A stretch of 64,000 nt of DNA from Pardosa pseudoannulata (lineage: Eukaryota; Arthropoda; Arachnida; Araneae; Lycosidae): positions 1 through 64,000 of the forward strand of contig JAGEOH010000234.1 of NCBI GenBank assembly GCA_032207245.1, read 5' to 3'. Shown piece after piece: positions 16,470 through 64,000 of the stretch. The translations under genes and the position numbers were made by a program. Under the pieces are notes generated by a model. The model was not told where the DNA came from, searched no databases, and worked only from the letters and a program-made list of their open reading frames with translations. Every line of letters begins with the position of its first letter. Position 1 is the first letter of the stretch.

Positions 16470-16612
16470 AAAGCCGAAGGGACCACTCGCGGGGCTGTGT
16501 CTTCCAGAGGCTTGTAAGGTCCCTAAGGCCGCGGCACTCATTCCTAAGGACCTGGCCTAACCAGAGTCCTCCATGTACAAACCTCACCTACTGTTTATTT
16601 TAATAAACGGGT
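16470..16612 (+). promoter_or_regulatory. P0 3'-terminal stem-loop and AATAAA end
   Basis: GGGACCACTCGCG ... GGCTTGTAAGGTCCC can pair through GGGACC/GGTCCC. AATAAA follows at 16602 and then CGGGTGGC. The same terminal module closes P1 (40739-40865) and P4 (58345-58472). No poly(A) tract follows AATAAA. Confidence 0.6.
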
Positions 16613-17260
16613 GGCTGCTGGTTGTTTGAACTGGTGGGGAGGTTTGTCTGGTTGGTTCCGCTGGCAGCGTTTCTCGGCTCGTCTGGTGGGCGCCCCGACC
16701 GTGTCGGTCGGGCGTTCTTCTTGGCGGAGGCCGGCGATGGGCCGAGTGAGCGGACTACCGTCTTGGGACAGCCCTTAGTTGACCGGGCACAGAGGCTGCT
16801 TAGCGCTCCTCTCGTGTCCGCGGGACGGGAGCTCACGAGACTGATCTCGTGTCTGGGTGTGGACACCGGGCCTGTACCCAACGCCCCAAACCAAACTTCG
16901 TTTGGTGGGCGGCAGGCCGCTGGTCAGCCAATCCCCAAGAGACCCCAGTCTGCACCCAGACACCATAGCGATAGGTCGGTTGTATCCTGAACTCCAGAGC
17001 CTAAGTCCCAACTTGCGCGGAAGAACTCATCGGACGACTTCCAAACCTGCACCATTGGATTCAGTATCGAATTCTACATCAGGATCTGCAATTTCGTCAA
17101 TTTTCTGCAATAATTAGGGCTCCAACTAATTAAAAACCGTGCATCACGTGGCGATATAGCGCGCCAATACGAGTCGGGGGAAGGGGGTCGATTTCCTAGA
17201 CCCAAAACATCCAAGCAGAAGACGGATTTTTATTTTCCAGCGGCTGTTCTACGCGTCACA
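16613..17260 (+). promoter_or_regulatory. P1 5' UTR, proximal structured part
   Basis: GC-rich, unlike the AT-rich surroundings. Hairpins seen: CCCGACC-gtgt-GGTCGGG (about 16694-16711); a three-way CTCGTG (16811) / CACGAG (16834) / CTCGTG (16846) set in which the middle strand can pair either way; and ACCAAAC-ttc-GTTTGGT (16890-16906). Similar sequence recurs in P2, P3 and P5. The role may be promoter, translation or RNA packaging; the function is inferred. Confidence 0.65.
17249..17260. repeat. Target-site duplication of E2 (left copy)
   Basis: CTACGCGTCACA here and again at 23095-23106, 12 bp identical, bracketing E2 inside the P1 5' UTR. Confidence 0.92.
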
Positions 17261-28403: not shown

Positions 28404-28434
28404 TGTTAAAAGTGGGGGAAAAAAGGAAATCAAG

Positions 28435-39400: not shown

Positions 39401-39842
39401 AGAGACCAAACTCCCCCTAGCTCGCTCTTTCATAAAGAGACAATTAAGGGAAGACATGTTAAGCTCCTGGGCCAGAGCCTGGTCAACTGCAAGTACAGGA
39501 AGATCATTGTACTATTACCTAAACAAGCTGTCCGAGAAGACAATCTTCGACTCTCCAGCGGTCAATGCACTCCTAACTAACCATGGCCCGTTCCCGGCAT
39601 ACCTCCATAGGTTCCACACGGGAGGAGCCACGTCACCCAACTATGTCTGCGGAGAGGTGGGGACAGCTGAACACTATATGTTCGAGTGCACCCTCACCAC
39701 ACAGCTCCATTTTAAGCGACCAGTTGAGTCAGCTGGCCTTGCCTGGGCTAACTCCTTAAACACCAACAAGGTGCTAAGAAAGCGAGCGGCCCAACTAATC
39801 TCCTGGCTCATCTCAAATCAGGAGGCAATCCTCCAACCCTAG
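36396..39842 (+). CDS. P1 ORF2: endonuclease-RT-RNase H, open but with RT core deleted
   Basis: 1148 codons from the ATG at 36396, inside the end of ORF1. The endonuclease (about 36-245) has GADFNARSPIWG, but its SDH triad reads SNH (241-243), whereas P2 and P4 keep SDH. The RT has KAPGPDNIDV, SYRPICLLP and ALAIDITGAF (595-604), then jumps directly to GPLLWNL: the motif-B segment (usually about 80 residues with PQGS) is missing in frame. YADD is at 630-633. RNase H is readable with FTDGSK (D881), AELH (E919), SDSQ (D943) and EEAD (D991). The C-terminus ends WLISNQEAILQP. Although open throughout, it cannot be a working RT. Confidence 0.9.
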   Translation: MDEQPQPRPMEENILEATTQTKQRKRAHRTSTKNTKALSILQINANHARAATAAIPLVAHQHQAHVLLIQDPYVFEGRLHGFPSAWRNFSSVNKKAWLVITDGEITYSPPIPKQSSVFLPLETTHGTLIVGSQYAAPSEDFVEALAEWEGVLAGLDTNTSLFLGADFNARSPIWGYDWEDARGSTLIEHCFLHDLSILNDAQSIPTFNHAGRQGWPDVSLLKSNNNVRASSWRVLEAESLSNHFYVQTVLGAVPTRTRSSRYNTKYGNHRKFQKKLQVTVGEIPTRLEDVRTHRGLDLYTSQLLEAIKRACDKAYRKKTLKIVREFKWWTPALSTQRNLVTALARRFRRDSSNDNIRQKLSKERANFKKLILQTRNKAWRLFCENTTKAYGGSYKLAHSKLFTPHEVLVDWAKPTSNLESQALLTEALFGPSEEAPSLPRCLPNIAGNKQIELQEVRDAVFSLNKNKAPGPDNIDVVILRQVFSAHKTLLREWVAKCFKFGHFPSPLRQGQVVYFLKGNKDPTLPSSYRPICLLPTLGKVLEKIIAKRISYHLESNSLLSPQQHGFRENRSCETALETLMQIIEINTRDKLFTNALAIDITGAFGPLLWNLVAERIIKSIKGLGADIIVYADDFLLVTSGSHRREIERKAQPVIDKLQESLNENGLTVSLQKTQNITFYPKGKRLSRLPTLKMSGSIIKSTTQLKYLGLTMSANLSWHAHIKAIKQKVLSHHLNLVKVTGRMWGVPSKFLKLWYLTVSESCILYAAGIWGRLMTESEKESLLKIQRPFLIRIARAYKTTPNTALQALTGIPPLPLTVSKAAKAAAILRLGRKISIGANSYAPSEIIRNQNTSHLHPADRTFDVAAEQHRPQMQPSFLAFTDGSKTETGVGSAFIITNGQERLATWSQSLNPEATVFQAELHAISECLKWLSRNHIREATILSDSQAAIKAIAKFVQQDPTVQQVQKQISKSSFKVRWVKAHCGITGNEEADVAAKSATTRTPETKLPLARSFIKRQLREDMLSSWARAWSTASTGRSLYYYLNKLSEKTIFDSPAVNALLTNHGPFPAYLHRFHTGGATSPNYVCGEVGTAEHYMFECTLTTQLHFKRPVESAGLAWANSLNTNKVLRKRAAQLISWLISNQEAILQP

Positions 39843-40865
39843 GTCGAAACAGGCTTGTAACCCATGGTCTCACTCGCGTGGCCGGTGATCCGGCTTGTAA
39901 GAGTCCATGGGATCGCGTGGCCTATGTTGAATGCCAACCCTGGCGGAAGACCTAAAAGTAATTTATTGTGTCATTTTGTGTTTAACATTACTAAAATTCC
40001 TATTTTCACCTTATGTAAAGCTACAAAGCTATTAGAGTGCTCACTTCTGACCTCCTAAAATCTTAGTTTATTTTGCATCTTAGTATGTTTGTCATATGTG
40101 AATCCTGTTAGTATTTGACTTTTATATGTTCCTCCTGTAAATATTTTTAAAATATGTCTTTTATGATGTCAGTAATTTCTGTCAATTCACTATGCTCCTT
40201 AATTCATTATCATGTATATTAATTCATGTATCATACTTTCTTACATTTAATATCTGCCTCCCTATATCTAATTATATTATATTTAAATTGCCATCTTTAA
40301 ACTTAATATTTAAAGTGCAACTAGCCAAAATATCTCATTTATCGATGTGTTAGTGTGGTGCAAATGTGCCAAACATGCCTATTTCGTTCCATTAATGTAA
40401 ATATTCAGTGTAATTCTTGTTTCTTTTTTTCGTTATAATTAATATTTGCCTCTCTTTATATTATTATTTTTATATAATTTGCCTTCTTTATATTTAATAT
40501 CTAAAGTGTAACAAGCCTAAATACCTACTTATTGTAGTGTTAGTGTGGCGCTTATGAGCCGACTTGTCATTTTTGCTTCAACAATGTAAATGTTCAATGT
40601 TATTTTCAGTGTAATTATTCAGTGTTAAATTCGTTTCCTATGTTCCTTCTCTCAGTTCTTCTTTTTATGTAATAATGGTAACCTTGTAAAGTGTACAGCA
40701 AATAGCTGCTCATCAAGAAGAAGCAAGCCGAACCGAGGGAGACCACTCGCGAGGCCTGTGTTCCCGAAAGGCTTGTAAGGTCCCCGAGGTAGCGGTAAAG
40801 CTTTAGTTAAACTGGCCTCACCAGTCCAATGTAAATTCAGCCTATATGTTTACTTAAATAAACGG
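39843..40865 (+). promoter_or_regulatory. P1 3' UTR with stem-loops, tandem repeats and AATAAA end
   Basis: The stem-loop at 39850-39925 has outer CCCATGG/CCATGGG and inner GCCGG-TGAT-CCGGC. A two-unit repeat of about 185 bp follows (AGTGTTAGTGTGG-GC at about 40347 and 40535). The terminal stem GGGAGACC...GGTCCC is at 40739-40785 and AATAAA at 40857-40862. The same order occurs in P0 and P4. Confidence 0.65.
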
Positions 40866-42297
40866 GTGGCGGATGGTCGCTCTGGCTGGTGGTCTGGCTT
40901 GTCCGGCTGGCAGCGTTTCTCGGCCCGTCTGGCGGGCGTCCCGGCCGTGTCGGTTGGGCGTTCCCCTTGGAGGAGACCGGCGGTGCGCCGAGCGGAGCGA
41001 CGACCGTCTTGGATCCGCCCTTAGTTGTCCGGGCACAGAGGCTGCCTAGCGCTCCTCTCGTGGCCGCGGGATGGGAGCTCACGAGACTGATCTCGTGTCT
41101 GGGTGTGGACACCGGGCCTGTACCCAACGCCCCAAACCGAACTTCGTTCGGTGGGCGGCAGGCCGCTGGTCAGCCAATCCCCAAGATACCCCAGTCTGCA
41201 CCCAGACACCATAGCGATAGGTCGGTCGTGTCCTGAGCTCCAGAGCCTAAGTCCCAACTTGTGCGGAAGGAATCATCTGACAGCCTCCAAACCAGCTCCA
41301 TTGGATAGAGCATCAAAATCTATGCAAGGATCTGCATTTTTGTGAAAATCCGTCAATAATTAGTGCTCCCACTAATTAAAAACTGTGCCTCACGTGGCGA
41401 TATAGCGCGCCAAAACGAGCCGGGGGAAGGGGGTCGATTTTCTAGACCCAAAACACCCAAGTCGCCGACGGTATATATTTATTTGCAGCTATTCAACGCA
41501 TCGCAGCCCTTCAAGTGTGGTACCGTTGGATAGCCACTGAAAATATCTACCAGCTAAAATCTTTGTGCATCGAAGTGTTAATTAGTGCCAGAGCTACAAA
41601 TTAAAGTAGCCAATTATCCTCAATTTCCAGGACTTAGCCTCCACAGCGCGCGTTTTCTCCCCTACTAGGGCGAAAACGAAGAAGAACAAAATACTCTCCA
41701 CCGATCGTCAGACCCTCGTCGATTTTCGTCACGATAGAATCAACCGAAGGGCAACTGACAATAGGGTCTCAATATGCTGCTCCATCCGATAACTGTACAG
41801 AAGCTCTAGATGAATGGAACAATATAATTCTAAATCTGGACAAGAATTCTAGCTTTCTGCTAGGAGCTGACCTCAACGCCAGGTCTCCTCTCTGGGGATA
41901 CGACTGGGAGGATAGCAGAGGCTCGCTTCTGATCGAACTTTGCTTTCAACACGACCTCTGTATTCTCAACAATCCCTCCAGCACACCCACCTACAACCAT
42001 GCGGGCAGAAGGGGCTGGCCCGACGTCACTTTGCTGCGCTCAAACTCTGCTTTACGCGCCAGTGATTGGCGGGTTGTCGAGGAAGAATCTCTGAGCGATC
42101 ACAGTTTCATCGTGACAAAATTGGACACAATAACTATAAAGAATAGCTCAACAAGGTTTAGGACTAAATATGGCAACCACGCCAAATACAGGAAAGCTCT
42201 ACAACCCAAATTGGGAGCGCTCTCCGGGCAACTTGAGTCTGTAATTACTACTGAACAACTTGACAGCCTGACCACTTCGCTAATTACCTCCATACAA
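40866..42297 (+). mobile_element. P2, 5' UTR fused to an ORF2 fragment
   Basis: The 5' UTR (40866 to about 41732) follows the P1 3' end directly and matches the P1 leader, including CCCGGCC-gtgt-GGTTGGG, CACGAGA/TCTCGTG and ACCGAAC-ttc-GTTCGGT hairpins. The rest of the leader and all of ORF1 are deleted; sequence jumps into the ORF2 endonuclease. The copy ends at 42297 where P3 leader sequence begins. Confidence 0.78.
41733..42297 (+). pseudogene. P2 ORF2 endonuclease fragment
   Basis: Open for about 188 codons: IGSQYAAPSDN, GADLNARSPLWGYDWED, NHAGRRGWPDVTLL, SLSDHSF (SDH intact), RTKYGNHAKYRKALQ. It corresponds to the middle and end of the P1 endonuclease. It has no start codon of its own and is cut before the RT, so it is a relic. 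Confidence 0.85.
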
Positions 42298-42572
42298 GAA
42301 GTTTATCTGGTTGGTTCCGCCGGCAGCGATTCTCGGCTCGTCTGGTGGGCGCCCCGACCGTGTCGGTTGGGCGTTCCTCTTGGAGGAGACCGGCGGGGGG
42401 CCGAGCGAGCCGACTACCGTCCTGGGACTGCCCTTAGTTGACCGGGCACAGAGGCTGCCTAGCGCTCCTCTCGTGTCCGCGGGACGGGAGCTCACGAGAC
42501 TGATCTCGTGTCTGGGTGTGGACACCGGGCCTGTACCCAACGCCCCAAACCAAACTTCGTTTGGTGGGCGTT
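42298..42572 (+). other. P3 5' UTR fragment
   Basis: Matches P1 16630-16910 closely, with the same CTCGTG/CACGAG/CTCGTG set and ACCAAAC-ttc-GTTTGGT hairpin. It begins abruptly inside the P2 ORF2 frame and ends at GGTGGGCG where piggyBac sequence starts. Both edges are deletion joins. Confidence 0.75.
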
Positions 42573-42765
42573 TTCAGTATCTGACGATATTAGAAAACAA
42601 AATAAAGGAGCACACTGGCCAGTATTTGTTAAATCCAGAGGCCGTTGTGAATTATGTTCATCAAAAAAAATTGAATCAAGACCACATTCCCAATGTTCCT
42701 TATGTAAAATTTTCCTCTGTGTAAATGAAAAAAAAAACTGCTTTTATGACTTCCACAATAATTGA
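42573..42765 (+). pseudogene. piggyBac transposase C-terminal fragment
   Basis: About 63 codons in one frame ending at TAA (42763-42765). The paired cysteines (RCELC, CSLC, FLCV, NCF) and the final H fit the C-terminal RING/PHD-like cysteine-rich domain of piggyBac transposases. No DDD core is present. The open frame extends upstream into P3 leader sequence only by chance. Confidence 0.8.
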
Positions 42766-43085
42766 CATTTTTGCCTAAAAAGGAGTTATTCGCTTCTAAA
42801 GGCTTCTAGGTATAATAAGCTTCTAATTAAAATGATAAAGTGAATTAAAAATAAAACTTTTTCCCTTTTATTTAGCCTATTTATTTAGTACTATACCAAT
42901 TGTTATGCATAGAAGTAAGTACCAACGGGACTTTTAAGTCCCAATTTTAAAATTAGCAAAAAAACATTGAAAAATTTAAAAATACTTTCTAAATTTAATA
43001 TGAGATGTTTCTGGTGCATAAAGAAATATAATAAAAAATTTTCAAACTCTTTTTCAAAAATTTAAGTAATTTGGGAAATAAAGGG
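42573..43085 (+). mobile_element. piggyBac transposon relic, 3' part only
   Basis: The first 190 bp encode a piggyBac-type C-terminal cysteine-rich domain (HWPVFVKSRGRCELCSSKK, CSLCKIFLCV, NCFYDFH). A 300-bp AT-rich 3' end follows and finishes in GGG immediately before TTAA (43086-43089), the hallmark target of this superfamily. The catalytic core and left end are missing, lost in a deletion that also removed the leader and start of P3 ORF1. Confidence 0.8.
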
Positions 43086-43258
43086 TTAAGGAAGTTCAGC
43101 GCCTATAGGAACAATCACACCCACTGGATTTTCCTCTGCACCAGGAGGGAAAGCCAAAGACTCATAAACGCGGGCTCCATTATCGCAGGCTTTCAAAAGC
43201 TGAAGGTAAAAGGACACTTTTACGTCCATAGGTGCAAAAACTGCCAGGAGGTAAATCT

Positions 43259-43272
43259 CCACCACACTTCGG
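43259..43272. repeat. Target-site duplication of E5 (left copy)
   Basis: CCACCACACTTCGG here and at 54754-54767. The last GG may be part of the element's terminal repeat, giving 12-14 bp. Confidence 0.92.
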
Positions 43273-44607
43273 TTGGTTGGTTGTTTGATGCTTTATGGCA
43301 CTGAATCCTCTAGGGACATATTGTGCCAAACACAAGGTAAAAATATTTAAAGGTGGTTATTAAAAACGTCGAATAAACATACAATAATGACACAAACTTG
43401 TAAAAATTTAAAATATAAAAGAGAAAACTGCTAAGAACAAAGTGAAAAGGTTAAAACTGTTTGGTGATAAAAGATGCGTAAACCATCAAATATGATTATA
43501 AAAATCGATATCTTTAAGAAATTTAAAAAGGTTAGGATGAGGTGACATACCAATAAGATCACGGATACTGATATTTTGAGAAAAGTACCGACGACGAAGA
43601 TTATTAAAATTCGGACAGTCAATTAAAATGTGTTTCACGGTCATATTGACCTTGCAGGCTTGGCAGATTGGAGCAGGATCACCGAGAAGGAGGTGACAGT
43701 GGGTAAAACGGGTGTGGCCAATACGTAGACGGGTTAATACAACATCCCATTTCCTTGTATTTTGAGAGGGCCATTGGTTAATAATAGGTTTAACTAAGTG
43801 CAATTTATTATCAACTAGATGGTCCCACGATTCTTGCCAATTTCGTTTAGTCCTAAGTTTGATATGGTTCTTCAAGTCGCAGAATGGAATAGCAATATTA
43901 AGGGGATCAACAGCCGATTTTGCAGCACAATCCACGAGATCATTACCCTTTATTCCCACATGAGAAGGAACCCAACAAAAGAGAATTGAAAAACCCTCCG
44001 AGACTAGGATGCCAACAAACTTGTTGATGTATAAAATTAAAGGGTGACTATTGTTGTGTAAAGTAGAGAGTGAGTGTAAAGAGCTCAAAGAGTCGGTATA
44101 AATAATGAAATTTGTTCCTGTTGTAATGCTTTAACTCCTCTAAGGCTTTAAAAATAGCGATCAGTTCAGCAGTGTAAATAGAAAAACAAGAGTTCAGCTT
44201 GTAGCTATAAATATCGTTGTCTATTGCATATGCGCAGCCAACATAATCGTGAGATTTTGATCCATCGGTAAAAACAGGAATATAATTATGATATGAAAGT
44301 CTATGATAATTAAAAAGATGTTTAAAAACAATATCAGCAGTAGAAGCTTTGTCAAAGTTTGTAAAAGGGTTTAAAAACTTAAAATTGGAAGTTTCCCATG
44401 GTGGAGGTAAAGTTTCAGGAATGAGAATGTTAAAATCCTTTATATTATGAGCAGTTAAAATAGAAATCATTCTGGTATGGAATGGAGGAGTACAAGAAGT
44501 TCTGGCTCGATAAAGACGGCTTAAGTAAGAATTCAAAGTAAAATTTGTTAACGGGTGATTTGGATGACATAATATTCTAAAATAATAATGGGACGCTAAA
44601 ATTTCGC

Positions 44608-44620
44608 GTCTTAGTTTTAG
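44608..44620. repeat. Target-site duplication of E4 (left copy)
   Basis: GTCTTAGTTTTAG here and at 50318-50330, 13 bp identical, lying in E5 ORF2. Confidence 0.93.
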
Positions 44621-50317: not shown

Positions 50318-52901
50318 GTCTTAGTTTTAGTGGCGCCTCACAACAGTCGGCGTAGAGACTTTCGACCGGGGACGTACGGAATGCACCAGAGCATAATCGA
50401 AGAGCCGAATGATGAATGACGTTAAGTTTCTGAAGGATAGACTTACTGGCAGAACCATACACAACTGAGCCATAATCGAGCTTAGAGCGAATAAGACAAC
50501 GGTAAATTTTTAAAAGAGAGGTCCTGTCTGCACCCCAGAAAGTATTAGAGAGGACACGCAAGATGTTAAGTGATCTCTCGCATTTCTTACGCAGATGGAT
50601 GATGTGGGGTTCAAAAGTTAGCCTGTTGTCGAAGATCACGCCCAAGAATTTTATTTCTTTCAAGATTTTTATATTTTGTCCTTCCATTTGAATAACAGGA
50701 TCAAGATGAATACCCCGTTTCCTACAGAAATGAACTGCGCAGCTTTTTGACGCAGAAAAACTAAAACCGTTACGATCGGCCCATTTCACAATTTTGTTGA
50801 CAGAAGTCTGAAGTTGCCGTTCAATGAAACGCATGTCGGCCCCATCACAAGAAATGTGAAGATCGTCTACATAAAGATTTGCTTTAACTGATGGCGGTAT
50901 TACATTAAGAATGTTATTAATTGCGATGATGAATAAATGACCACTAAGAACGCTGCCCTGAGGGACCCCTTCTTCTTGCGTAAAAATATTGGAATAACAA
51001 TTTCCAACCCGAACTTTAAAATTGCGTAAAGATAAAAAATTTTCAATAAAAATAGGCAGGTTTTCCCCTCATGTCGTAACTGTATAATTGTTGCAGTATC
51101 CCGTAACGCCAGGTACGGTCATACGCTTTCTCTATGTCGAAGAAAATTGATACCATGTGATGACGCTTCACAAAGGCGTTCCGTATTTTACTTTCAAGAT
51201 CGACAATGTTGTCAATGGTACTCCTACCCCGACGGAAACCACTTTGGTTCAGAGATAAGTACTTATGAGCTTCGAGATAATAATTAAGCCGAGCACTGAT
51301 AATTTTCTCCAAAGTTTTACTAAGACAGCTAGTGAGAGCAATTGGGCGGTAGTTAAGCGGATTCTTTGGTTCTTTTTTAGGCTTCAGGATGGGTATGATG
51401 ATAGCCATTCTCTAGGAGGTCGGGTAAGTATGTTCGTGCCAGATTCTATTGAAAAGAAATAAGAGGTTGGAGAGAGATGTGGGTGATAGATTTTTTATCA
51501 TACAATAAGAAATATTATCAAGGCCGGCAGAGGAATTAGAGGTATTCTGGAGGGCTCTATGTAATTCAATTTCAGTAAGGTCACTATTGTACGGAAAAAA
51601 GCGTTTAGTGTGAAAGTTTATTTTATTTTTTTCTATTAAAGTTCTGTGTTTCATAAAGGATGACGAGTAATTGGTCTTTGAGGAGATATAAGCAAAAGTA
51701 GAAGCAATGGCGTTTGAAATGTCATTTAAGGAAGAGATATTTTGGTTATTGATTTCGAGGAAATTGATTTGATTGTTAGGATAGACACCAGAGCTGCGTC
51801 TGACTTTATCCCACATAATTTTACTAGGAGTAGAAGTAGTTATGCTACTGACATATCTCGCCCAAGAATCCTTTTGGCTGCGTCTTAAAATCCGTCGGAA
51901 GATGGCTTTGTGTTTTTTGTAAATCAAGAAATTGTTTGTGGTAGGGTACCTTTTAAAAACATTCCAGGCCCGTCTTTGATCTTTGTAAGCATTTTGGCAT
52001 TCCTGGTTCCACCACGGCTTTGTCTGTCGACGATAACTACCAAGAGATTTTCGAATCGAAGAGTCTGCTGCTTGAATAATAGCATTTGTTACAAGTTCGA
52101 CGGCTTCATCGATATCTCTATTATCTACCATATGCCTGGTTATTTTTGCTAGGCTGCTATATAGCTTCCAATCAGCTGAATCAAAAATATACCTAGGGGT
52201 ACGCTGAATAGGCTTAATATAGGAAATGCGGGTAAGGATAATAGGGAAATGGTCGCTGTTGTGGAGGTCAGGGTCGACTTTAAGGTTCCAGAAAGGGTAT
52301 TGCTGCGGAGAACATATGGCTAAGTCAAGGTGATGGTAGGTTCTATTTGGAGAATGAAAATAGGTGATTTCATTGTTATTGAGAAGCGAGAGATTATGGT
52401 CTTGGATTAACTGTTCTATTTGTTTGCCACGATGATTAATATTGGGACTACCCCAAAGAGGATTGTGACCATTCATGTCACCAAGAATAATGAAAGGCAT
52501 AGGAAGCTGAGAAGTCAGATTATTTAGAGACTTTTGATCTATTGTAACGGATGGGGGGAGGTACAGACTGCAAATGGTAATGCTTGAATGGATATGAATC
52601 CTGACTGCAACAGCTTGTAAGTCAGTTTGCAAATTGATGGGAGCACAAGGATAGTCTTGGGCAATGAGCAGAGCCACCCCGCCGGACGGCCTGTCACCTT
52701 CCATGTGATCTTTTCTAAAAGTTGTGAAATACCGGAGCTTTGCTGCTTTTGCTGTATGCAGGAACGTCTCCTGCAGAGCAATACAAATAGGCTGATAATT
52801 GTTAACCAGATCCCTGAGATCGGAGGTATGGTGGTGGAAACCATGGCAGTTCCAAGTCAACAGAGCCATTATAAAACAGGCGAAAGAAAGGGAAAAAGCG
52901 G

Positions 52902-54200
52902 TTAGCACTGAGGAGAAGCGGATGGCGTGTCCGTCTCAGAACCGCTGCTAGTAGACATATCATCGTCCGGTGACACGTACATTTTTAGAGAATCGTCTTC
53001 AGTAGGGACGAGATTCTCCAAGATAGGACGATGTTTTCAGAAAATCTATTCGAGATAATTTCTTTTTACTTGTCACAGTTTGTGCTTTGGTTTGATTTTT
53101 ATTTCCAGTAATTTTTTTCTTAGTAGTTCCTTTATGTTTAGATGAGGCTGGTACATTCAAACTGGTATTTCGGATGTCAGAAGCATTTTTACTATTACTG
53201 TTAGTCTGAGTGTGCGTTTCATGAATATTTTTACGAATCTGTAAATCTGGTTTGGGAATAGAGAGCAAAGATTGTGTGTTTACAGGATGTAATTGCTTGG
53301 AGGAAATATCAGTAACGGAGGATTTATTAATAATTTTACTTGGGATATATCAGTTTGGGTACCGCATGACTTCATATTTTTTGAGCTAACTACGGAGGAG
53401 AAGGAAACTCCAGGCTTTGGACAACGAGAAGCAACTATTTTTCGAGCTTCCGGGTAATATTGTTTTTCTGCTTTAAATTTTGCACTTCTTTTTCGAATTG
53501 CCAGGACGGACAAACACGGGAGAAAGAAGGGTGAGCACCTTTGCAGTTCACGCATAAAGGTGTTTTATCACAGTTAAGAGACTCGTGGCCGACTTCTGCA
53601 CAACGTGCACAGGTAACGGACCCACGACACGACAGCTTGGAATGTCCAAATCGCTGACACTGGAAGCAACGAAGAGGGTTAGGAATGTAAGGGCGAACGG
53701 TACATTTCATATAAGCAGCATATAAATTAGAGGGGAGTTTAGGACTATCAAAAGTAATAATTAGATGTTTAGTTTTAATGGTTTGCCCGTCGCGACGAAT
53801 AGTTATTCGACGGACCGCGACAACACCTTGACTTTTCAGATTTTCCAGGATTTCATCCTCTGGAACATTGTACAAATCAGACTCAGATATAACGCCTTTT
53901 GAAAAAATTTAGGGAACCATGCGGGGAAACAGAAACAGAAAACGGGCCTAAAGTATTACTGGATAATAAAGACTTAGCTTGGTCGGAAGAGGAAACTTGT
54001 AATAGGAGATCGCCAGATTTGAGCTTTTTAATTGATTCGACTTCACCAATTACGGACTGAATAGTTTTATGTATTAGAAACGGAGAAATAGAGCTGAAAC
54101 TTCCATTTGCGTTATTTTTAACAATAAAAAAACGAGCTTTGTTACTTACGAGGTGCTCTCCGGTTGAGGGAGAGAAATTTGGCGTGTTTTGAGAACCCAT
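52902..54200 (-). pseudogene. E5 ORF1: zinc-knuckle protein, several frameshifts
   Basis: ATG at 54200 (MGSQNTPNFSPS). Open to about 53900, then shifted near SFLIHK-linked SLNF, then MYNVPEDEILENLKSQG with CFQCQRFGHSKLSC, CARCAEVGHESLNC and CVNCKGAHPSFSRVC, then at least two further shifts before a tail ending PSASPQC and TAA at 52902. Domain order equals that of E2 and E3. Non-functional. Confidence 0.82.
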
Positions 54201-54753
54201 AATAGCAAAAAATTACTTCGGATCCCGACGGCACCACCCACCATGGAGCCCAACATGGGGATGCAGATACCTGCACCAGTGCTAGCCGGGATCTATACGA
54301 TCACAGGTACCAGAAAGTACACCGATCACTTAGTCCAAGCCGAAAACCGACCAGCCCATTGGTACATGTGGACCAATATGTACCTCCCGTTTACACGAAG
54401 CCGAGGCCAAAGCAACGTGTTGGAAACTCCCCGCCAAAATGGAAATTCCATAAAAGATGATTTCCCCCACGGGAAGTCCCCTCAATTACCAGGACCCTCA
54501 TTTCCGCGGACACGGGTCTCCACGCACGGCAAACACGTGGGCAGTAAACAGTTCGCGAGAGGCTATGTTCAGAATGGAACATAGCATCACGAGAAAAGCC
54601 CTCAACTCCGAAGAGGTAACCGCAATGAGGGAGAAAAGGGAAAGAACAAAGTAGGAGACGAGAGGAGGGGAAACGGAAAAAGAGAAAGTTCGCTGGGGCA
54701 CCTCGGGATTGCGACACCCGTGTTTACCTAAAGTAGGTAAACCCCCTGAGGGG
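54201..54753 (-). promoter_or_regulatory. E5 5' UTR
   Basis: Same terminal hairpins and the CCACCATGGAGCCCAACATG stretch (+ strand). More diverged than the leaders of E2 and E3, consistent with greater age. Confidence 0.5.
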
Positions 54754-54974
54754 CCACCACACTTCGGAATGTAGGTCCAAGACTTATTGCTCGTGTTGCG
54801 GCGGAAAACACTCCGTAGAAACCTGCAAGGCAAAGACACCCTCGTGCATTAACTGCTGCACCTGGAACGACCTTCACAAGGAAGATGCGTCTGTACCAAA
54901 GGACAAAGAACACTACCTCAGGGTAGATCACGCGGCAGACTCCCCCTTTTGTCCAGTGTACCAGGACGTAGTAA

Positions 54975-55194
54975 ATGGAAGAATCGCCTCAACGTAGGCC
55001 AATGGAGAACAGCGTGTCTCTTCCTTCCTCGGCCACAAATCACGAACTAATAACGGCTACTGAACACGCTATGACCGTAACCAAAACAAGGGGTAACGGG
55101 CAACCGAACTCTTCCAGGCCTTATCCGCCTCACCCTTCTCACAGCAGTCGAACCATTCACAAAGGACTTAATATCATCCAGATAAATGCTGGTT
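54975..55194 (+). pseudogene. P3 ORF2 N-terminal fragment
   Basis: ATG at 54975, inside the end of ORF1. About 73 codons (MEESPQRRPMEN ... LNIIQINA) match the P1 ORF2 start up to QINAN. The frame then continues without interruption into ORF1-type residues (SGTSDELVPDGNGDL), so a copy join lies at about 55190. Confidence 0.75.
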
Positions 55195-56489
55195 TAAAAA
55201 ATGCTGGTTCCGGTACAAGTGATGAACTTGTACCGGACGGAAATGGCGACCTAAGAGTTCGGAAAAAGGCAATCAAGACGCCTGGCTCAAGCCCTAAGGA
55301 ACAAGAGACAGTCGATTCATCGGACAGGGAACAGCAGCCCGAACGGGTATCAACACCGAAACAAGATAAACCGCAGCATAGCCCCAATCTCCCTACGAAA
55401 ATAACCCAAAGGGCACATAATGCCATGGTAACAGACCCCTCTGCGACACATGTCACAGAGGGCGAAAGACTGCCTAATAGACCTCCTCGCTGATATAGAG
55501 GACACGTACAGCGTGGCGTTAGCAGCCCTGAAGAACAACAGAGCAGTGGTCCTCCAGAGAGAAGAGCCAGTGCAATACTCGGACCCAAAGCTGGACACGC
55601 TCATGGAAAAGCTCCAGTCACTGGAAAAGAAGGTCGAGGAGATATCTACCAAGAATGTGTCGCCTCCAGCAGCCAGCGACATCTCCCACCAGCATCACGC
55701 TCCCTCCGACCCCCCAAGCAAATCCTATGCGTCAGCAGCCAGGGCTCCGAAAATTACTTTGGTCCTGAAACCAGCAACAGAAGACACCAGCCCAAAGGCC
55801 GTTTTCCAAAAGCTGAAATCTCTGCAGTGCCCGGAAAACGTCAGGATAACCAAGCTGAAAATCCTGCCCAGCCGGATCGAGGTAAGATGCGACAGCGAAC
55901 AACACAAAGAGTCGCTCAGCACCTACCTCCAAGAAAAGTTGGCCGAAGAAGCAAGAATAGAAGACAAAAGACCCTCCTTTCAGCGGGTAATGGTCTTAAT
56001 GCTTCGAACAAACAAGATGAGCACACTATACTAAATGCCTTCAAAACCAAAGAGGACAGCGCTCCATGCAATGTAATCAGGACGTACAGGTCCAGCAGAG
56101 AGGGCCATACGCACTGGGTGGTACTGTGCCCCCGCAGAACAGCACAAAGAGTCCTGACCGCAGGCAACATGTCAGGCTTTGAGAAACTCCGGGTGAAAAA
56201 ACACCACCAAATTCACAGGTGTAGGAATTGCCAACATATCAATCGGCACCACACCTCGGAGTGCAAGGCAAGGCCATACTGTTCGTGGTGCCGAGGGAAA
56301 CATGCAGTAGAAAAATGCAAGGCTCGGGTTCCCAGCTGCATCAACTGCTGCGCGTGGAACGAAGCCCACGAAAAAGACGCATCAGTCCCAATGGACCAGA
56401 AGCACTACGTTCCAGTAGACCATGCGGTCGACTCGCCATTCTGCCCAATTTTTAATGACATAGCAAATGGACGAGCTACATCAACCTAG
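55195..56489 (+). pseudogene. P4 ORF1, two frameshifts
   Basis: Same order as P1: DELVPDGNGDL, ITQRAHNAMVTDPS, then a two-base deletion near 55440; SQRAKDCLIDLLADIEDTYS, coiled coil KLQSLEKKVEEIST, KSLQCPENVRITKLKILPS; then a one-base change near 55995; HTHWVVL, CRNCQHINRHHTSEC, CSWCRGKHAVEKC and a stop at 56489. The first part of the gene is missing. Confidence 0.83.
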
Positions 56490-57398
56490 ACAGATGCAAG
56501 CGCGAGATCCCACCAACAGGCACAGAACAAAACAGCTCAGGAAACGATTACCCAGCAAAGTAACTAGAGACCTAACTCTTTTGCAACTGAACGCCAACCA
56601 TGCGAGAGCAGCGACGGTAGCTATCCCAGTGGTAGCACTTAAACAAAAAGCACACGTTCTCTTGTTGCAAGACCCTTACGTCTTCGAGGGCCGATTACAC
56701 GGCTTCCCCAGCACGTGGAGGACATTCAGTTCATCCAACAAGGCCTGGATCGTCCTCACGGACGGAGAAATTAAGTACTCCCCTCCAATTGCGAAGCTCT
56801 CATCGGTCTTCCTGCCGCTTGAGACCTCACATGGCACCCTAATTGTAGGTTCCCAATATGCAGCACCCTCCGAGGACTTTGACGAGGCGCTTACAGAATG
56901 GGACGCAATCTTAGCAGGTATGGACAACAACTCCAGCCTTTTCATGGGCGCAGACTTCAATGCCCGCTCACCCATATGGGGTTATGACTGGGAAGATGCT
57001 CGAGGTTCGTCACTAATCGAACACTGCTTTTTGCACGACCTCAGCATTCTAAATGATGCGCACAGCATACCTACCTTTAACCACGCTGGCAGACAGGGTT
57101 GGCCAGACATTTCCCTGCTTAAGACCAACACTAACGTACGAGCAAGCTCTTGGCGCGTACTTGAGACCGAGTCTCTTAGTGACCACGCCTACGTTCAAAC
57201 TGAACTAGGAACTGTCCCGACGAGAACTCGGTCAATCAGATACAACACCAAGTACGGTAATCATCAAAAGTTTCTAAAGAAACTACAAGTGACGTTGGGG
57301 GAAATCCCAACCACTTTGGAAGATGTTAGGACACCACATCAATTGGACCTCTTCACCCCGCAGCTGTTAGCAGCGATCAAAAAGGTCAGCGATAAAGC
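56467..57398 (+). pseudogene. P4 ORF2, endonuclease only
   Basis: ATG at 56467 (MDELHQPRQMQ), 23-nt overlap with ORF1. LQLNANHARAATVAI, GADFNARSPIWGYDWED and SLSDHAY (SDH intact) are present. At 57398 the coding sequence (GATAAAGC) is joined to the last bases of ORF2 (AATCAGGAGGCGATCC), out of frame. Relative to P1, about 2.5 kb including RT and RNase H is deleted. Confidence 0.87.
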
Positions 57399-58472
57399 AA
57401 TCAGGAGGCGATCCTCCAACCCTAAGGTCAAAAACAGGCTTGTAACCCATGGTTTCAATCGCGTGGCCGGGGCTCCGGCTTGTAAGATTCCATGGGATCG
57501 CGCGGCCTTTGTACAAAGTCGGACCTTAAACCAACCCATCTCTAATCTTTATTTAACTGTTTCATCATTATCTAAATGTTATTATCGCCTATTATGTCTA
57601 TATCTGTGTTTAAATTCCCAATTGTTGCCTGTAGATAAGTAGTTACTTATTCCATGGTTGTACAGTATGTAAGAATATCTATCCCTATTGCCATTCTTTT
57701 GTATTTTTATTCTTCTTAAGTGCCTTATGTTTTTGCGGTAATATGTTGAACAGCCTGCCAGTGTTTTTCGTACTATGCCTCCAAGTTTTAGTAAAAACCT
57801 GATTGTCCAATCACAAAGTTCTTTTCATAACTATTTTGTTTAGCGCCACTATGTATCTGTAAATAATATCGCCAAGTGCCTTATAGTACCTGATTTTTGT
57901 AATCACCAACCTACTCTTATCACTCATTTATTTGCTCACCTATTATGCTCAGTGCCATTATGTATCTGTATATAATATCGCCAATTGCCTTACAGAATCT
58001 GATTTTTGCAATTTGCCCTTATCACTTATATTTTTGTTTTTCTCTTTATCACATTTCCTACATACTCATCTTGTTAAGTGCTTTTATATAACTGTTTAAA
58101 ATCGCCAAGTGACTAGCAGTTTCAGATTTTTGCTCTCACCAATCAATTCTCTTCATTTTATTTAATTTTCTTTTTTTTCCGCTCTATGCCATTATGTGTC
58201 TGTACATCTCATTCATCCTTTGTCTTCATCTATTGATTTTGTATTGCCATTTATGTTTAACCTAACCAAGACTTGTCTCATTCCACAGTCAGTAGAAGCG
58301 CCCATGTCACAACCAATAATTGCCACCAACATGTAAGCCCAACTGAGGGAGACCACTCGCGTGGCCTGTGTTTCCATGAGGCTTGTACGGTCCCCGAGGT
58401 TGCGGCAATTCTGCAAATACCTGGCTCAACCAGTGTAATATGTAAACTCCAGTTGTTTATTCAAATAAACGG
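57399..58472 (+). promoter_or_regulatory. P4 3' UTR
   Basis: The stem-loop at about 57435-57510 has outer CCCATGG/CCATGGG and inner GCCGG-GGCT-CCGGC. Tandem repeats of about 105-125 bp lie at 57840-58210 (GTGCC-TTATGTATCTGTA, ATCGCCAA-TGCCTTA-AG). The terminal stem GGGAGACC...GGTCCC is at about 58343-58400, then AATAAA. Confidence 0.65.
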
Positions 58473-58798
58473 GGGTGGCTGACCGCTTCGGTTGGAGGTG
58501 TGATCTGTCTGGCTGGTTCCGTGCCCGGCGGGACTCGGGCCGTCTGGGGGGCGGTCCGGCCGTGTCGGTTGGGCGCTCCCCTTGGAGGGTCTGGGGTCCG
58601 GACGGGGGAGCGACGACAGGATGGTGATGGCCCTAGGATGTACGGGCACAGAGGTTGCCTAGTGCACCTCTCGTGGACGCGGGACGGGAGCTCACGAGAC
58701 TAATCTCGTGTCTGGGTGTGGACACCGGGCCTGTATCTAACGCCCCACACAAAACTTCGTTTGGTGGGCGGCAGGCCGCTGGTCAGCCAATCCCCAAG
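58473..58798 (+). promoter_or_regulatory. P5 5' UTR, proximal part
   Basis: Keeps CCGGCC-gtgt-GGTTGG, the CTCGTG/CACGAG/CTCGTG set (about 58667-58709) and the ttc-loop hairpin (ACAAAAC-ttc-GTTTGGT, one mismatch). The leader stops at CCCCAAGAG and joins ORF1 sequence; the distal leader is deleted. Confidence 0.6.
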
Positions 58799-59017
58799 AG
58801 TCAAGCAGCTCTAGCGACTCCGATGAAGAAACTCCCCTCGTAGAGCTAAAGAGGCAGGACCTCACGAATAACGAGCAGTGCAAAAGGCAATTAAGCAAAT
58901 CAACAGTGAGCGAAGATAGCAGCACCTCCGACAGCTATGGCCACTTAAGCTCCTCAGAGAATGACAAAAAAGGCAGTTCAAGTGACGAACTAGTACATGA
59001 TGGTAAAGGCTAGGAAA
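58799..59017 (+). pseudogene. P5 ORF1 N-terminal scrap
   Basis: About 70 codons of serine-, aspartate- and glutamate-rich sequence (SSSSDSDEETPLVELK ... SSDELVHDGKG) ending at a TAG. It matches the N-terminal low-complexity part of P1 and P6 ORF1. Recognisable ORF1-like bases continue to about 59075 in another frame. Confidence 0.65.
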
Positions 59018-59078
59018 AAGTCCATCAAGACGTCAGGCTCACGTCCCCAGGAACCAGTGACAGCCGTATCACCGTATG

Positions 59079-59094
59079 GGGTGCTCCCAGCACC
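59079..59094. repeat. Direct repeat flanking the viral insert (left copy)
   Basis: GGGTGCTCCCAGCACC, matching 59676-59691 (GGGTGTTCCCAGCACC) at 15 of 16 positions. Candidate target-site duplication of the viral cDNA integration. Confidence 0.65.
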
Positions 59095-59675
59095 CAGCAC
59101 ATTTATTTTGCGATTCTCACAAAGACGGCCTTACAAACTTTCTAACACTTATCTAAGAGCTCAGCTTAGTGTGCAATGGCTACTCCAGTTTCTCTCGTTA
59201 CCCAAGTGGACAGTATCTTCGATAAGGTCAGCCTCTCTGACGACGAGATAGAGGCCCTAAAGTCCACCCTTGACACCTATGCCTACCAAGGGTTTCACCC
59301 CATAGTAGTTGTCAATGAGCTCCTTCGAAAAGCTGAGACCCAGCAGCAATTCAAGAAGGATCTCACGAGGCTCATTGCCATAGGTGTCAAGAGAGGCACC
59401 AACCTCGAGAAGATCCAGGGGAGATCTTCTACAGAAGCATCCACAGCCATCAGAGAACTTATAGCCCGCTACAACATCAAGACGGGCTCTCCCCGCACCA
59501 GCACAGACATCACCATGGCCAGAATTCTGGCCATTGCGCCACATGTGGTGGCAAGGGTGTTGAAGTCAGCGAAGGACGTCACTCTAGTGACGGGTGGAGT
59601 AGCAATCTCCGCCACCTTCCTTCCGCTGAGCTTCCCCGGGCGGGAGCCATCATCCCCAAAGACGCCGCATTCACT
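59095..59675 (+). other. Endogenous viral element: phenuivirus-like nucleoprotein gene fragment
   Basis: The insert comprises about 23 bp of unassigned sequence (59095-59117), then CACAAAGAC (59118-59126), which resembles the conserved terminal octamer family ACACAAAG of phlebovirus segments, about 50 bp of leader, and the coding region from the ATG at 59176. The coding part is the N-terminal two-thirds of a nucleoprotein. The sense strand is +, the mRNA sense. Low divergence from an open frame suggests either a fairly recent insertion or constraint. Confidence 0.75.
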
Positions 59676-60072
59676 GGGTGTTCCCAGCACCAAGAGAGAG
59701 CTCTGGACCGCAAGTCGGGAAACCGAGAAGGGAAGGCACCTATTCCAGTACTTACCACGGGGAGATAGAAAAAGGCTGTTTGGCTCACCAGCAGTAAGCG
59801 CCCTGTTAACAGGTCACGGGCCCTTCCTAGACTACCTCTTCCGTTTCAGAATACTTAATACAAATATCTGTGTGTGCGGTGAAACAGGCACGGCAACCCA
59901 CTACATGTGTAACTGCCCACTTAGAGTGCAATTCCACTTCAGACGGCCACCAACATCGGGCCAAGCACTATGGGCGGAACAACTTAACACAAAAACGCTA
60001 GCGAGAAGGGCCGGCGACCTGATGGCATGGCTAGTGACAAACCAGACAAACCTACTCGAACCGAGACCCTAG
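59176..60072 (+). CDS. Chimeric ORF: viral nucleoprotein fragment fused to P ORF2 C-terminus
   Basis: 298 codons, no stops. Residues 1 to about 166 resemble phlebovirus-type nucleoproteins (Tenui_N family): the AYQGF motif (36-40), a helix ending VKRGTN (71-76), and ELIARYNIKTGSP (94-106) followed by the DITMARILAIAPH helix (111-123). The family is usually about 245 residues, so roughly the last third is missing. Residues about 167-298 are the end of P ORF2 (FGSPAVSALLTGHGPF, CVCGETGTATHYMCNC knuckle, WLVTNQTNLLEP). The ATG is the first in the viral part. Nucleoproteins coat viral RNA; whether this fusion is made or does anything is unknown. Confidence 0.75.
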   Translation: MATPVSLVTQVDSIFDKVSLSDDEIEALKSTLDTYAYQGFHPIVVVNELLRKAETQQQFKKDLTRLIAIGVKRGTNLEKIQGRSSTEASTAIRELIARYNIKTGSPRTSTDITMARILAIAPHVVARVLKSAKDVTLVTGGVAISATFLPLSFPGREPSSPKTPHSLGVPSTKRELWTASRETEKGRHLFQYLPRGDRKRLFGSPAVSALLTGHGPFLDYLFRFRILNTNICVCGETGTATHYMCNCPLRVQFHFRRPPTSGQALWAEQLNTKTLARRAGDLMAWLVTNQTNLLEPRP

Positions 60073-60490
60073 TGCTCAACCATGAAATCATAACGTAACT
60101 CTGCGGTAATACATAGTTTATCAGAAAAGAGTAAATCTCTCAAAAAGAAAAATTGCAAATATAAAAGGAAAAGTGTAAACCTATTGATCTATTGTTAATT
60201 GTAATTGTATTATTATCTTTATTATTTTTATTTTCTATTTAAAATCAAAATATCATTTATAAACTTTTTCTGTGACCACACCAAAACGAGCAAGCAAGCA
60301 GTCTGTAAATAAAAATGTTATTAGTGTATCACCTGAATAACTAAAGTACACCAAACATGTAACAAGACATCAAGCAACTCAGCTACGAAGAAGTTCCTGC
60401 GAAAAGCAGAAGGGGCAATACAAAGGGCGGACTCCTGTGGAGGCACCCCCCCCCCGCGCAGCCCAATGTGACAAAAAATTTCAATAAACG
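60073..60490 (+). other. P5 3' UTR
   Basis: AT-rich, then GGAGGCACCCCCCCCCC and AATAAACGGTGGC. It lacks the long tandem repeats and the first stem-loop of P0, P1 and P4, so P5 and P6 are probably a separate subfamily. Confidence 0.55.
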
Positions 60491-61599
60491 GTGGCATGCC
60501 GTTCCTAGTGGGACGGATTGGTCTGGCCGACTCCGATAATGAACGACGCTCCCCGCTAAATCATCTCTGCTCGTGCACGCACAGTCTTTCACTAAACTTC
60601 AAGTACCAGTAACAGAAATGCTTTAAACACCTGCCAATTTGGTCACTATAAACATCTAGGGGCTCCGTGACACGTCGAACCAAATTCGATGCTGGGCGAT
60701 CCTCCCAGCTACCAGCACACAAGCCTTAAACCTCTCCTCGTATTGGTAGGCTGCGGGTAGAAGGGCTTTTCTCAAATTTCCAATCCCCCATATACCTGTC
60801 CTAGCGACGAGCGAGTAAAGACGTGTCTTCAGCGAGCTCTCGAGCCAGCGACCAGCGAGTGTGGAAAAAACCGTCCCTCATTCCTGCAAATAGCATCGAT
60901 CGAAAGAGCGGAGCATAGCTGTCCGCCCAAATTTGGATACCCTGCATTAATTAGCGCCCGAGCTATTAATTAAAAACCGTCCAAATTACAGGCGATATAA
61001 CCAGCCACCGTCGACCCCACGGCAGAGCGGAGCGACCCATCGGTGACTTCACCAAAACAACAACGTGTCAAGGCGACAACACCTAGTTCGGAGCCCTACA
61101 TCTCAAGTTCCTGAAGTGCCACCGACTAGAAACCAGCACGGTTGGATAGCTGGAATCTAGCTCTTCAATCTGACATCAATCCCAAGTGTGTGTGTGTTTT
61201 AGTGCCAACTTAACGAGATCTCCATCGCCGAGGCCTAATATCGGAGAAAACTCCCCCTCCAAGCAGTTCCGAAGAAGATCCAGAGGGTGAATTTTTTCAC
61301 CCAAAGCTTCATCCCTTAGCTTTTTGGAAGTTAAGCTGATATAGTCAATGACCTCCATCCATCCAATTTGTGAGTGAATCCGGCGTTAATTAGCGATCTT
61401 ATCCGCTAATGAACTAATTAACTAATTAATTCTCCAGTGTGCGTATTATTTGTGCCAAATTAAATAACTTTGTGGATTACTGTTCCCGACCATCTAAGCT
61501 ACCCCAGCGCACCAAGCGAGCCCTAGGGCCACAAGATTACCAGTGCCAACCGCTTCCCAAACAGCCAAGTTACCTCGCAAGAGCCTTACCAAATACCAA
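60491..61599 (+). promoter_or_regulatory. P6 5' UTR
   Basis: About 1.1 kb, diverged from P1 but with parallel blocks: TTAATTAGCGCCCGAGCTATTAATTAAAAACCG (compare P2 41355-41388), GGCGATATA, CACGGTTGGATAGC. A (TG)n tract is at about 61183-61193. No coding capacity. Confidence 0.55.
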
Positions 61600-63010
61600 A
61601 TGCAAGACTCGGACACTGACATGCGCCCCTCACAGAGGGCGCGCACCAAGACCAAAAGGTTGTGCGACGAAATGTCCCACCCAAAACTAGCAGCAGAGAT
61701 AGCAGGCGCAACACCTGACCAAAAAGAGAACACCGATCATAGCAGTGACGGAAGCGCACACAGTGAATTAGTGCCAGACGGCAGTGGCAGCCTCCGGAAA
61801 AGGCGCACCAAGTCGCAACGTCATAAGCAACCAGAGGCCATACAGGAAGATAACTCCCAAACAACTCCACGAAAACAAAACAAAAAGCACAAGCAGCTCC
61901 TCATCGGATACCAGCGAAGATGAAGGAAAACCACTGAGCGCACTGATAGCAAGAGATCACCTTCCGAATTCCATCACAGAAGAGGCACACAACGCCCTGG
62001 TGACAGACCCTTCGCTCATGCGTTTATCCAGCAACGCAAAGGAAACAATCCTCGGATTGCTACAAAGAATCGAGGAGAATTACCAAAGAGTGAAGTCAAC
62101 GATAGCACCGAAGCGCCGCCCTCAGCAGACCGTCAAGATCGACAGCCATCCCGACCTACAGCCAATACCAGAAAAGTTAGCATCGCTCGAGAAAAAGATA
62201 GAAACGATGATCCCACCCAGCACAGCGGAAGCGACACCACCAACGTACGCGTCGCAATTAAAAAGGCCGAAAAGCACATTAGTCATCAAGCCAACGAATG
62301 AAAACAGCAAGACAAACCTGATGAGCAAACTAATCAATCTGAAGTGTCCGGACGATGTCAGACTAACCAAACTCAAAAAGGCACCAGGACACATTGAACT
62401 GAGGTGTACAACGGAGACAGCGAAGGAAAAACTACAAACATACCTAACCGAGGAACTAAAAGAGATGGCCACAGTGGAAAACAAACGTCCTACACTCGTG
62501 CGCCTAATGGTGTTAAATACCCCAGATAATATCGAGGAAAAACAAATACAAAGAGCCTTCTCTGACAAAAACCCTGAAGCGATTAGAGCAGTAGCCAACT
62601 TCACCTCCAGACGAGAGGGCCATAGCCACTGGGTACTCTTAGTCCCAAAAAGCATTGCTATAGCAAACCTACACACGGGACACGTCCTAGTAGATTTCCA
62701 AAAACTTAAGATCAAAAAGTACATAAATTTTCACAGGTTTTGTAAAAACTGCCAGGCGCTAAATGAACATCACACCTCGCAATGCAGGACAAAACCGTAC
62801 TGTGCACATTGCGGCGGCAGGCATAACGCAGAAAGCTGCAAAGCAAAGAACTCATCATGCATAAACTGCGAATCGCATAACGCCTCCGTCGATGACGACA
62901 AAACCATCCGGCAAGAAAACAAGCACAAACACTACTTCAACCATAGACACTCTGCAGATTCCTCCACTTGCCCACTATACAAAAGAATAATACAAGGAAA
63001 AGAACTCTAA
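61600..63010 (+). pseudogene. P6 ORF1: zinc-knuckle protein with one frameshift
   Basis: Likely ATG at 61600 (MQDSDTDMRPSQRA). The low-complexity N-terminus with ELVPDGSGSLRK is in the first frame, then a one-base shift near 61880, then about 370 open codons: ITEEAHNALVTDPS, ETILGLLQRIEENYQ, a short coiled coil (EKLASLEKKIETM), CPDDVRLTKLK, REGHSHWVLL, CKNCQALNEHHTSQC, CAHCGGRHNAESC and INCESH. Same order as P1 ORF1 but clearly diverged. The stop is at 63008-63010. Confidence 0.83.
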
Positions 63011-63011
63011 A

Positions 63012-63160
63012 ATGAAGGTAGCGTCCATCAACGTAAACAACAGCAGAGCAGTCACAGCAGCAGCAGCCACCACCGCCCTGAACTACGGACTTGACATAAT
63101 GTTGATACAGGATCCGTACATTTACAACGGAAAACTGCACGGCTTTCCCAACCACATTGA
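63012..63160 (+). pseudogene. P6 ORF2 N-terminal fragment
   Basis: ATG at 63012, two bases into the TAAAATG that links it to ORF1. About 50 codons (MKVASINVNNSRAVTAAA ... IQDPYIYNGKLHGFP) match the first segment of the P endonuclease (IQDPYVFEGRLHGFP). Ends at the E6 junction. The rest of the element is gone. Confidence 0.85.
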
Positions 63161-63279
63161 GGGAGAAAGGAAGAAAAAGGAGGAAAAGAGGAAAGAAAAG
63201 GAAAAGAACAAAAGATCGCTGGGGTACCTCGGGATTGCGACACCCGTGTTTACCTAAAGTAGGTAAACCCCCTGAGGGG
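63160..63279 (-). mobile_element. E6, isolated 5'-terminal fragment of an E element
   Basis: Only the first 120 bp of the E leader, with the exact CCCC-TCA-GGGG start at 63279 and the GTTTACC...GGTAAAC hairpin, in - orientation. The 3' remainder is missing. Normal 5' truncation cannot produce a 5'-only piece, so deletion or recombination joined it to P6. No target duplication is seen. Confidence 0.82.
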
Positions 63280-63347
63280 GAAAATCCTGAGGGTATACGA
63301 AAAATTGTTCCCAATCCTTTCCAGTAGGTAAGTTTACATTTATTCAC
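63280..63347. other. Junction DNA, nothing recognised
   Basis: Short stretch between E6 and the transposase relic. It matches neither P nor E. Confidence 0.4.
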
Positions 63348-63856
63348 TGGCCAAACTCAAGGGCAATCAGAAATTATTGTCCAGAATCCCTGAAGCAGAG
63401 TGAATTTAGAAATGCTACATGCATTATAGATTGCACTGAATTTCTTATGCAGCCTCCAAACCCTCAATTTGCCCAGTCTCAAACATTTTAAAATTATAAA
63501 AATAATTATACTTTGAAAGTGCTTGTAGCAATTACACCCACGGGGCAAATTTGTTATCTGTCAAAGGGATGGGGGGGGGAACAGTATCGGATAAAGAAAT
63601 TACATTGCAGTCTGACTTCATGGATTTAGTGAAGGTAGGAGATGTCATACTTGCTGACAAAGGCTTCAATTTAGAAGAATTCTTTCTGGTCAAAGGAGAT
63701 ACTTTAAATGTACCCTCATATACCCGAGGTAAAAAACAGCTGTCAAAAGAAATTTTTTATTTAAAAAAGGTATCAAATGTGAGGATACATGTGGAAAGTG
63801 CAATTAAGTGTTTCCATATATTAAAAAATCCTATCTATTTTACATTTGTACATTGA
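63348..63856 (+). pseudogene. Harbinger/ISL2EU-like (DDE_Tnp_4) transposase fragment
   Basis: The first segment reads WPNSRAIRNYCPES and then IIDCTEFLMQPPNP (first catalytic D), followed by a TAA in what should be the FSNYK region, then TLKVLVAITPTGQICYLSKG. A G-run at 63571-63579 shifts the frame; it continues with TVSDKEITLQSDFMDL, DVILADKGFNLEEF (second D), NVPSYTRGKKQLSKE and VRIHVESAIKCFHILKN (the E region) to a TGA. The domain order fits DDE_Tnp_4 transposases. With one nonsense codon and one frameshift it is a dead relic. Confidence 0.8.
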
Positions 63857-64000
63857 GAATATGTGTTACATTATGTAATATGAAACCTCCCTTTGTAGAA
63901 TAATTTTTAAAAATAAATTTAATTTCAATTTTATATACTTAACTTCACTTATTCTAACTTATCAGCTTAATTTTAAATATTTAAATTATCGAGCGAACTG
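63857..64000. other. AT-rich end of window
   Basis: No feature recognised. Possibly the 3' flank of the transposase relic, but no terminal inverted repeat is visible before the window ends. Confidence 0.4.

Follow-up and report, generated by a model that had tools for sequence, protein, structure and literature searches.

A phenuivirus-like nucleoprotein fragment with a probable cap-snatched leader in a mosaic of non-LTR elements of Pardosa pseudoannulata

Introduction

The locus described here raises the question of how the gene of an RNA virus came to lie in frame with the remains of a retrotransposon in the genome of Pardosa pseudoannulata, and how much of its route is still recorded at its two ends. 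Since such joints are seldom readable, the entry of RNA-virus genes into invertebrate genomes is mostly inferred. Endogenous viral elements (EVEs) derived from phenuivirus nucleocapsid genes are known in ticks (PMC10675110), and phlebovirus EVEs have been described in Ixodes (PMC2987831) and bunyavirus EVEs in crustacean genomes (PMC4573495), while the accessible part of PMC6191289 holds nothing on phenuiviruses. Herein we analyse a stretch of 64,000 nucleotides (the window), in which a fragment of a nucleoprotein (N) gene lies between non-LTR sequences. Its features are collected in Table 1, where the family labels D and E were coined in this analysis.

Table 1 Features at and around the N insert, in window coordinates.
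Feature	Positions	Strand	Evidence
Family D, 5'UTR-like start, directly after AATAAA (58464-58469) of the preceding element	58470-58799	+	Matches within the window; AATAAACGG joint
Family D, ORF1 fragment with a stop and a frame change (approximate boundaries)	58800-59097	+	ORF1 DNA match; translations
Imperfect 19-nt direct repeat, left copy; probable target-site duplication	59079-59097	+	17/19 identical to right copy
20 nt that separate the left repeat copy from the viral terminus; probably a cap-snatched host leader	59098-59117	+	Genome pattern search
Viral 5'UTR, opening with CACAAAGACGG (phenuivirus terminus minus its first A)	59118-59175	+	Printed termini
Phenuivirus-type N gene, 5' two thirds, ~166 codons, open	59176-59675	+	Tenui_N, PDB, profile and fold matches
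Imperfect 19-nt direct repeat, right copy	59676-59694	+	17/19 identical to left copy
26 nt without assignment to N, D or E	59695-59720	+	No counterpart in E siblings
Family E, ORF2 3' end, in frame with N	59721-60072	+	Matches to two sibling copies (contig C60)
Family E, 3'UTR, ending in AATAAA (60483-60488), next element directly after	60073-60488	+	C60 siblings; AATAAA/CGG scan

Results

Identity of the nucleoprotein fragment

An ATG frame of 298 codons (59176-60072, + strand) has the N fragment as its first ~166 codons and continues in frame past 59675 into a non-LTR ORF2 tail. A preliminary description of this DNA had recognized a phlebovirus-type (Tenui_N) nucleoprotein from the motifs AYQGF, VKRGTN and ELIARYNIKTGSP in the frame that opens at 59176, and frame and motifs are indeed present, the latter at conserved columns of the N family. 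Its identification is borne out by Pfam, where residues 1-166 match Tenui_N (PF05733) over residues 26-140 at E = 9.8e-18, with 65 bits where the cut-off is 25, and the whole 298-codon frame matches at E = 4.4e-17; with either query Tenui_N is the sole family above its own cut-off, and no host or transposon gene matches better. The top PDB chain by sequence is likewise a phlebovirus N (4j4x, 5.9e-10). In an alignment of 35 sequences, Y37, G39, G74 and R116 are invariant and Q38, F40, D41, R73, Y99 and T113 nearly so, the window N having H at residue 41. A model predicted from these 35 aligned sequences (pLDDT 76.8 and pTM 0.68, with confidence dropping to low at residue 141 and beyond) found 124 PDB chains at E ≤ 10, 45 of them at ≤ 0.001, and the best 50 of the 124 are all phenuivirus N. 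For these best 50, the rmsd was below 10 Å in five and at least 10 Å in 45, with TMq between 0.51 and 0.59, a poor whole-chain superposition that is probably explained by a flexible N-terminal arm. The protein is incomplete and does not have both full lobes: the Tenui_N match ends at profile position 131 of 224, and relatives mostly measure 240-260 residues. The window N is a phenuivirus-type nucleoprotein fragment.

Viral relatives

Of two single-sequence protein searches, one returned only the protein P0001 and the other P0001 together with an ORF2 tail (P0002). Virus relatives were recovered only via the profile of an alignment (A1) that combined the window N and P0001 with two stretches of N taken from the PDB output. 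This profile retrieved 74 proteins at E ≤ 1e-4, each of which carries PF05733. P0001 is 99% identical to the window N, the others 24-35%. Among viral contigs of IMG/VR, 18 stretches matched a pattern, and none of the 18 encodes a relative. A phylogeny, as the preliminary description had proposed, gave no supported place in a named genus. In a quick tree of 75 rows, Cumuto virus and Wugcerasp virus 12 stand next to the window N and P0001 on very long branches; the joining fork receives zero support, and the tree comes with a program warning about false joins. We therefore speak of a "phenuivirus-like" virus and claim no genus. With P0001 set aside, Cumuto virus N is the protein most identical to the window N (35%, covering 64% of the query). 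The source virus would have belonged to a phenuivirus-like lineage, to which no protein found is more than 35% identical apart from the insert's own copy, P0001. Six short unnamed Tenui_N proteins (P0063, P0064, P0069, P0071, P0073 and P0074; 156-219 aa, encoded on contigs of 0.7-6.3 kb in public data) are candidates for additional N fragments of endogenous origin.

Copies of the insert

A genome search located three N loci, on the window contig (C234) and on contigs C661 and C346, with the same joints at the insert in all three. The blocks shared around the insert extend over 19 kb at 99.3% (C234/C661) and 7.8 kb at 99.6% (C234/C346). Over 7751 bases the loci differ pairwise by 19, 19 and 32 substitutions, and the 578-nt insert shows no substitution and three gap columns. 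The loci go back to one integration that was recently duplicated, or represent partly unresolved haplotypes. At a larger scale, ~40694-44620 and 50318-64000 of the window recur on C661 and C346 at 96-99.8%, with breaks between blocks; either segmental duplication or unresolved haplotypes would account for these recurring blocks. P0001 (197 aa, on a public contig of 1435 nt) has two residue changes in its first 150 and the same E joint. At the 3' side of the insert it is read in another frame and does not keep the fused one; in that other frame its final 29 residues coincide with the window, as judged by eye. To judge from its sequence, P0001 is a more distant copy of the insert.

The contigs are just 34-69 kb long, which might suggest an assembly artefact or contamination with viral cDNA. 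Such an origin is, however, extremely improbable given that the joints are identical in three contigs, that the right-hand joint also occurs in P0001 on its separate contig, and that what is fused to the host elements is a truncated insert. In all three contigs a viral gene adjoins host DNA, and we regard the N insert as an endogenous viral element, presumably an inherited one.

The fused N-ORF2 frame is free of stops in all three genome copies (open over 300, 300 and 299 codons), as might be expected had its 298 codons been retained as a working antiviral protein or a source of small RNAs. The copies are nevertheless too alike for this openness to mean selection, and P0001 does not preserve the fusion, which leaves retention very unlikely. 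Most likely the insert is today a passive fossil, probably with no present function; a putative use of the insert as an antiviral small-RNA source is possible.

The left end: viral terminus and probable leader

The sequence CACAAAGACGG at 59118 stands 58 nt upstream of the N ATG. Printed segment ends are ACACAAAGACCG, ACACAAAGACCC and ACACAAAGTCCG, with CCGTCTTTGTGT (complement ACACAAAGACGG) at the opposite end of one segment (PMC6001614), and the tenuivirus terminus is given as ACACAAAGUC (PMC8148189). Within the window CACAAAGAC occurs once, at this place, against a chance expectation of 0.53 and at least one occurrence in 41 of 100 shuffles. Since this count is near chance, only the position counts as evidence, and the chance of finding CACAAAGAC within 60 nt before the ATG on the same strand is ~2.5e-4 by our own arithmetic.

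Phlebovirus mRNAs obtain their caps from those of the host and lack polyadenylation (PMC5533932), and the cap-snatched leaders of tospoviruses measure ~12-18 nt (PMC8148189). The 20 nt at 59098-59117 are slightly longer than the latter and are probably a cap-snatched host leader. They have three exact matches in the 2.4-Gb genome, all of them N copies; a search for the donor gave no other genome match at 0-1 mismatch, and 36 at two mismatches against 17 for a control pattern. The first viral A is missing behind the leader, possibly because priming took place inside the terminus, which would give such a loss. It is also possible that these 20 nt stem from the D element, of whose adjoining piece no other copy was found by DNA (58780-59130 has no genome match besides the three N loci).

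The surrounding elements

The preliminary description had set the N fragment inside a retrotransposon, embedded between P-element pieces. The retrotransposon setting stands insofar as non-LTR sequence lies on both sides, although it belongs not to one resident element but to a mosaic of two families. The P-element pieces could not be confirmed: no P-transposase family appeared among 12 translations compared with Pfam at the protein level (one of them a related ORF2 at 36279, three of them parts of the N-ORF2 frame), and the flanks are non-LTR. On the left, 58332-58800 matches 40725-41186 (79%) and 16462-16941 (77%), 58508-58770 matches 42306-42570 (81%), and 58976-59074 matches ORF1 DNA at 55213-55322 (69%). 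On the right, the stretch following N shares 50% identity with the terminal part of the related full ORF2 (36279-39842), in which domains for endonuclease, reverse transcriptase and RNase H are present. AATAAA with CGG immediately after it, where one element ends and another starts, is found four times on the + strand of the window (16602, 40857, 58464 and 60483) and once on the - strand, at 20745 within a coding frame. The surroundings of the insert are a mosaic, D on the left and E on the right, in a head-to-tail array, which could reflect site-specific or end-to-start insertion.

The window's order of E and then the next element is repeated on contig C60 (loci L023 and L024). In L023 (C60:127000-136999), a family E element at 944-6045 of the reverse complement has an ORF1 of 509 and an ORF2 of 1193 codons, and since both are open from stop to stop, family E may have been active recently. 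The window itself holds another long non-LTR element on the - strand (24732-29547), with an open ORF2 of 1233 codons and an ORF1 of 370 codons that appears zinc-knuckle-like by eye.

The flanking repeat and the right-hand joint

The interval that the preliminary description had assigned to the viral fragment (59095-59675) agrees to within 3 bases with the segment that the repeat copies enclose (59098-59675). The left copy stops where the leader starts, and the right copy begins at the end of demonstrable N homology. A 17/19 match was reached in none of 3000 shuffles of the junction stretches (maximum 16, once) and in one of 3000 random window pairs with like spacing. The simplest reading of the repeat is a target-site duplication that has since acquired two changes. 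For the empty site, a 32-mer joining the flanks was searched in the genome with up to three mismatches and found none; its three matches, all at three mismatches, are the right-hand joints of the N copies. A telomere-repeat target was also considered and dropped, as three TTAGG-type patterns had no match in the window. There is no poly(A) tail at 59640-59720, and one mark of classic LINE-made copies is thereby missing. Since the duplication is present but poly(A) absent, we regard the insert as working like a non-LTR mRNA copy and do not call it a classic one. For insect EVE insertions, PMC2987831 reports neither target duplications nor poly(A) tails as apparent in any case.

At the E joint, a search of the genome with 59676-60200 by DNA gave six matches: the three N loci, two copies on C60 (82% and 85%) and one weak match. 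Both C60 copies match the window from 59721 (30/30 and 29/30 of the first 30 bases, by eye) and continue through the 3'UTR into the following element at 73-74% overall; upstream of 59721 they diverge from the window at once, with GGGAAAC shared at the joint. This sharpness would suit a one-step origin by template switching, in which a reverse transcriptase on E RNA changed to N mRNA at 59720/59721, ran to its capped 5' end and passed on to D RNA, the 19-nt repeat being a re-copied scrap of N or chance. The succession of three unlike pieces would fit as well, a route of this kind would be required for an N mRNA lacking poly(A), and the P0001 frame can be loosely aligned with N past 59675. The hinge is the 45 nt of 59676-59720, which would favour template switching if they were N. 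Scored as N against the two nearest relatives, however, they were equalled by 39 of 500 shuffles over 15 residues and 100 of 500 over 21 residues, and in the sum over all relatives by 84 and 242 of 500, respectively. Template switching would, moreover, leave the 17/19 repeat at both ends without explanation, and we consider it doubtful.

Discussion

Our preferred reading, to which we give a probability of roughly 0.6, is that a cDNA of the N mRNA was inserted with target duplication into an already existing D/E mosaic. A phenuivirus-like virus would have infected a germ-line cell, where the machinery of a resident non-LTR element would have reverse transcribed the virus's cap-snatched, non-polyadenylated N mRNA from an internal point as far as its 5' extremity, together with the leader. 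The cDNA would then have entered the mosaic D/E copy by target priming and left the 19-nt duplication, and the block was later duplicated, as seen in the assembly, to at least three contigs. A leader, a terminus without its first base and no poly(A) are what reverse transcription of such an mRNA would leave. That N mRNA was reverse transcribed by a resident non-LTR element had already been proposed in the preliminary description. This proposal agrees with the flanking repeat, with the structure of the 5' end and with the mosaic of non-LTR families, the enzyme being one that we infer. Against the preferred reading count the lack of an empty site, the 45 nt that may be N, the missing poly(A), a 20-nt leader without donor and the absent first viral base.

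Both ends of the insert are nearly base-exact, and the combination of repeat, probable leader and terminus points to non-LTR reverse transcription of a capped viral mRNA. The insert also records a phenuivirus-like lineage that the proteins found match at 35% or less, P0001 aside. We put forward more tentatively, and with less conviction than the preferred reading, that the locus holds the complete 5' end of a cap-snatched viral mRNA with its host leader, caught by a non-LTR reverse transcriptase while it switched among E RNA, the viral mRNA and D RNA. If this were true, cap-snatching and viral capture by R1-like elements could be read directly in invertebrate genomes.

Phenuivirus N EVEs are already known, and what is new here is the unusual legibility of the ends, with a repeat and an apparent capped leader; in the open-licence literature searched, we found no description of a cap-snatched leader within an endogenous element. 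The non-LTR elements of the window are presumably R1-like: their related ORF2 likewise combines endonuclease, reverse transcriptase and RNase H, but in contrast to R1-like elements they stand head to tail. With the LINE-made copies of viral mRNAs in mammals (PMC2987831) the insert shares a target-site duplication and a start at the mRNA 5' end, whereas it has no poly(A), is truncated at its 3' side and lies within a mosaic of two non-LTR families. The phenuivirus EVEs of ticks (PMC10675110, PMC2987831) likewise place a phenuivirus-like N gene in an animal genome; compared with them, the insert of the window has both of its ends readable, in the form of a flanking repeat, a probable capped leader and a viral terminus.
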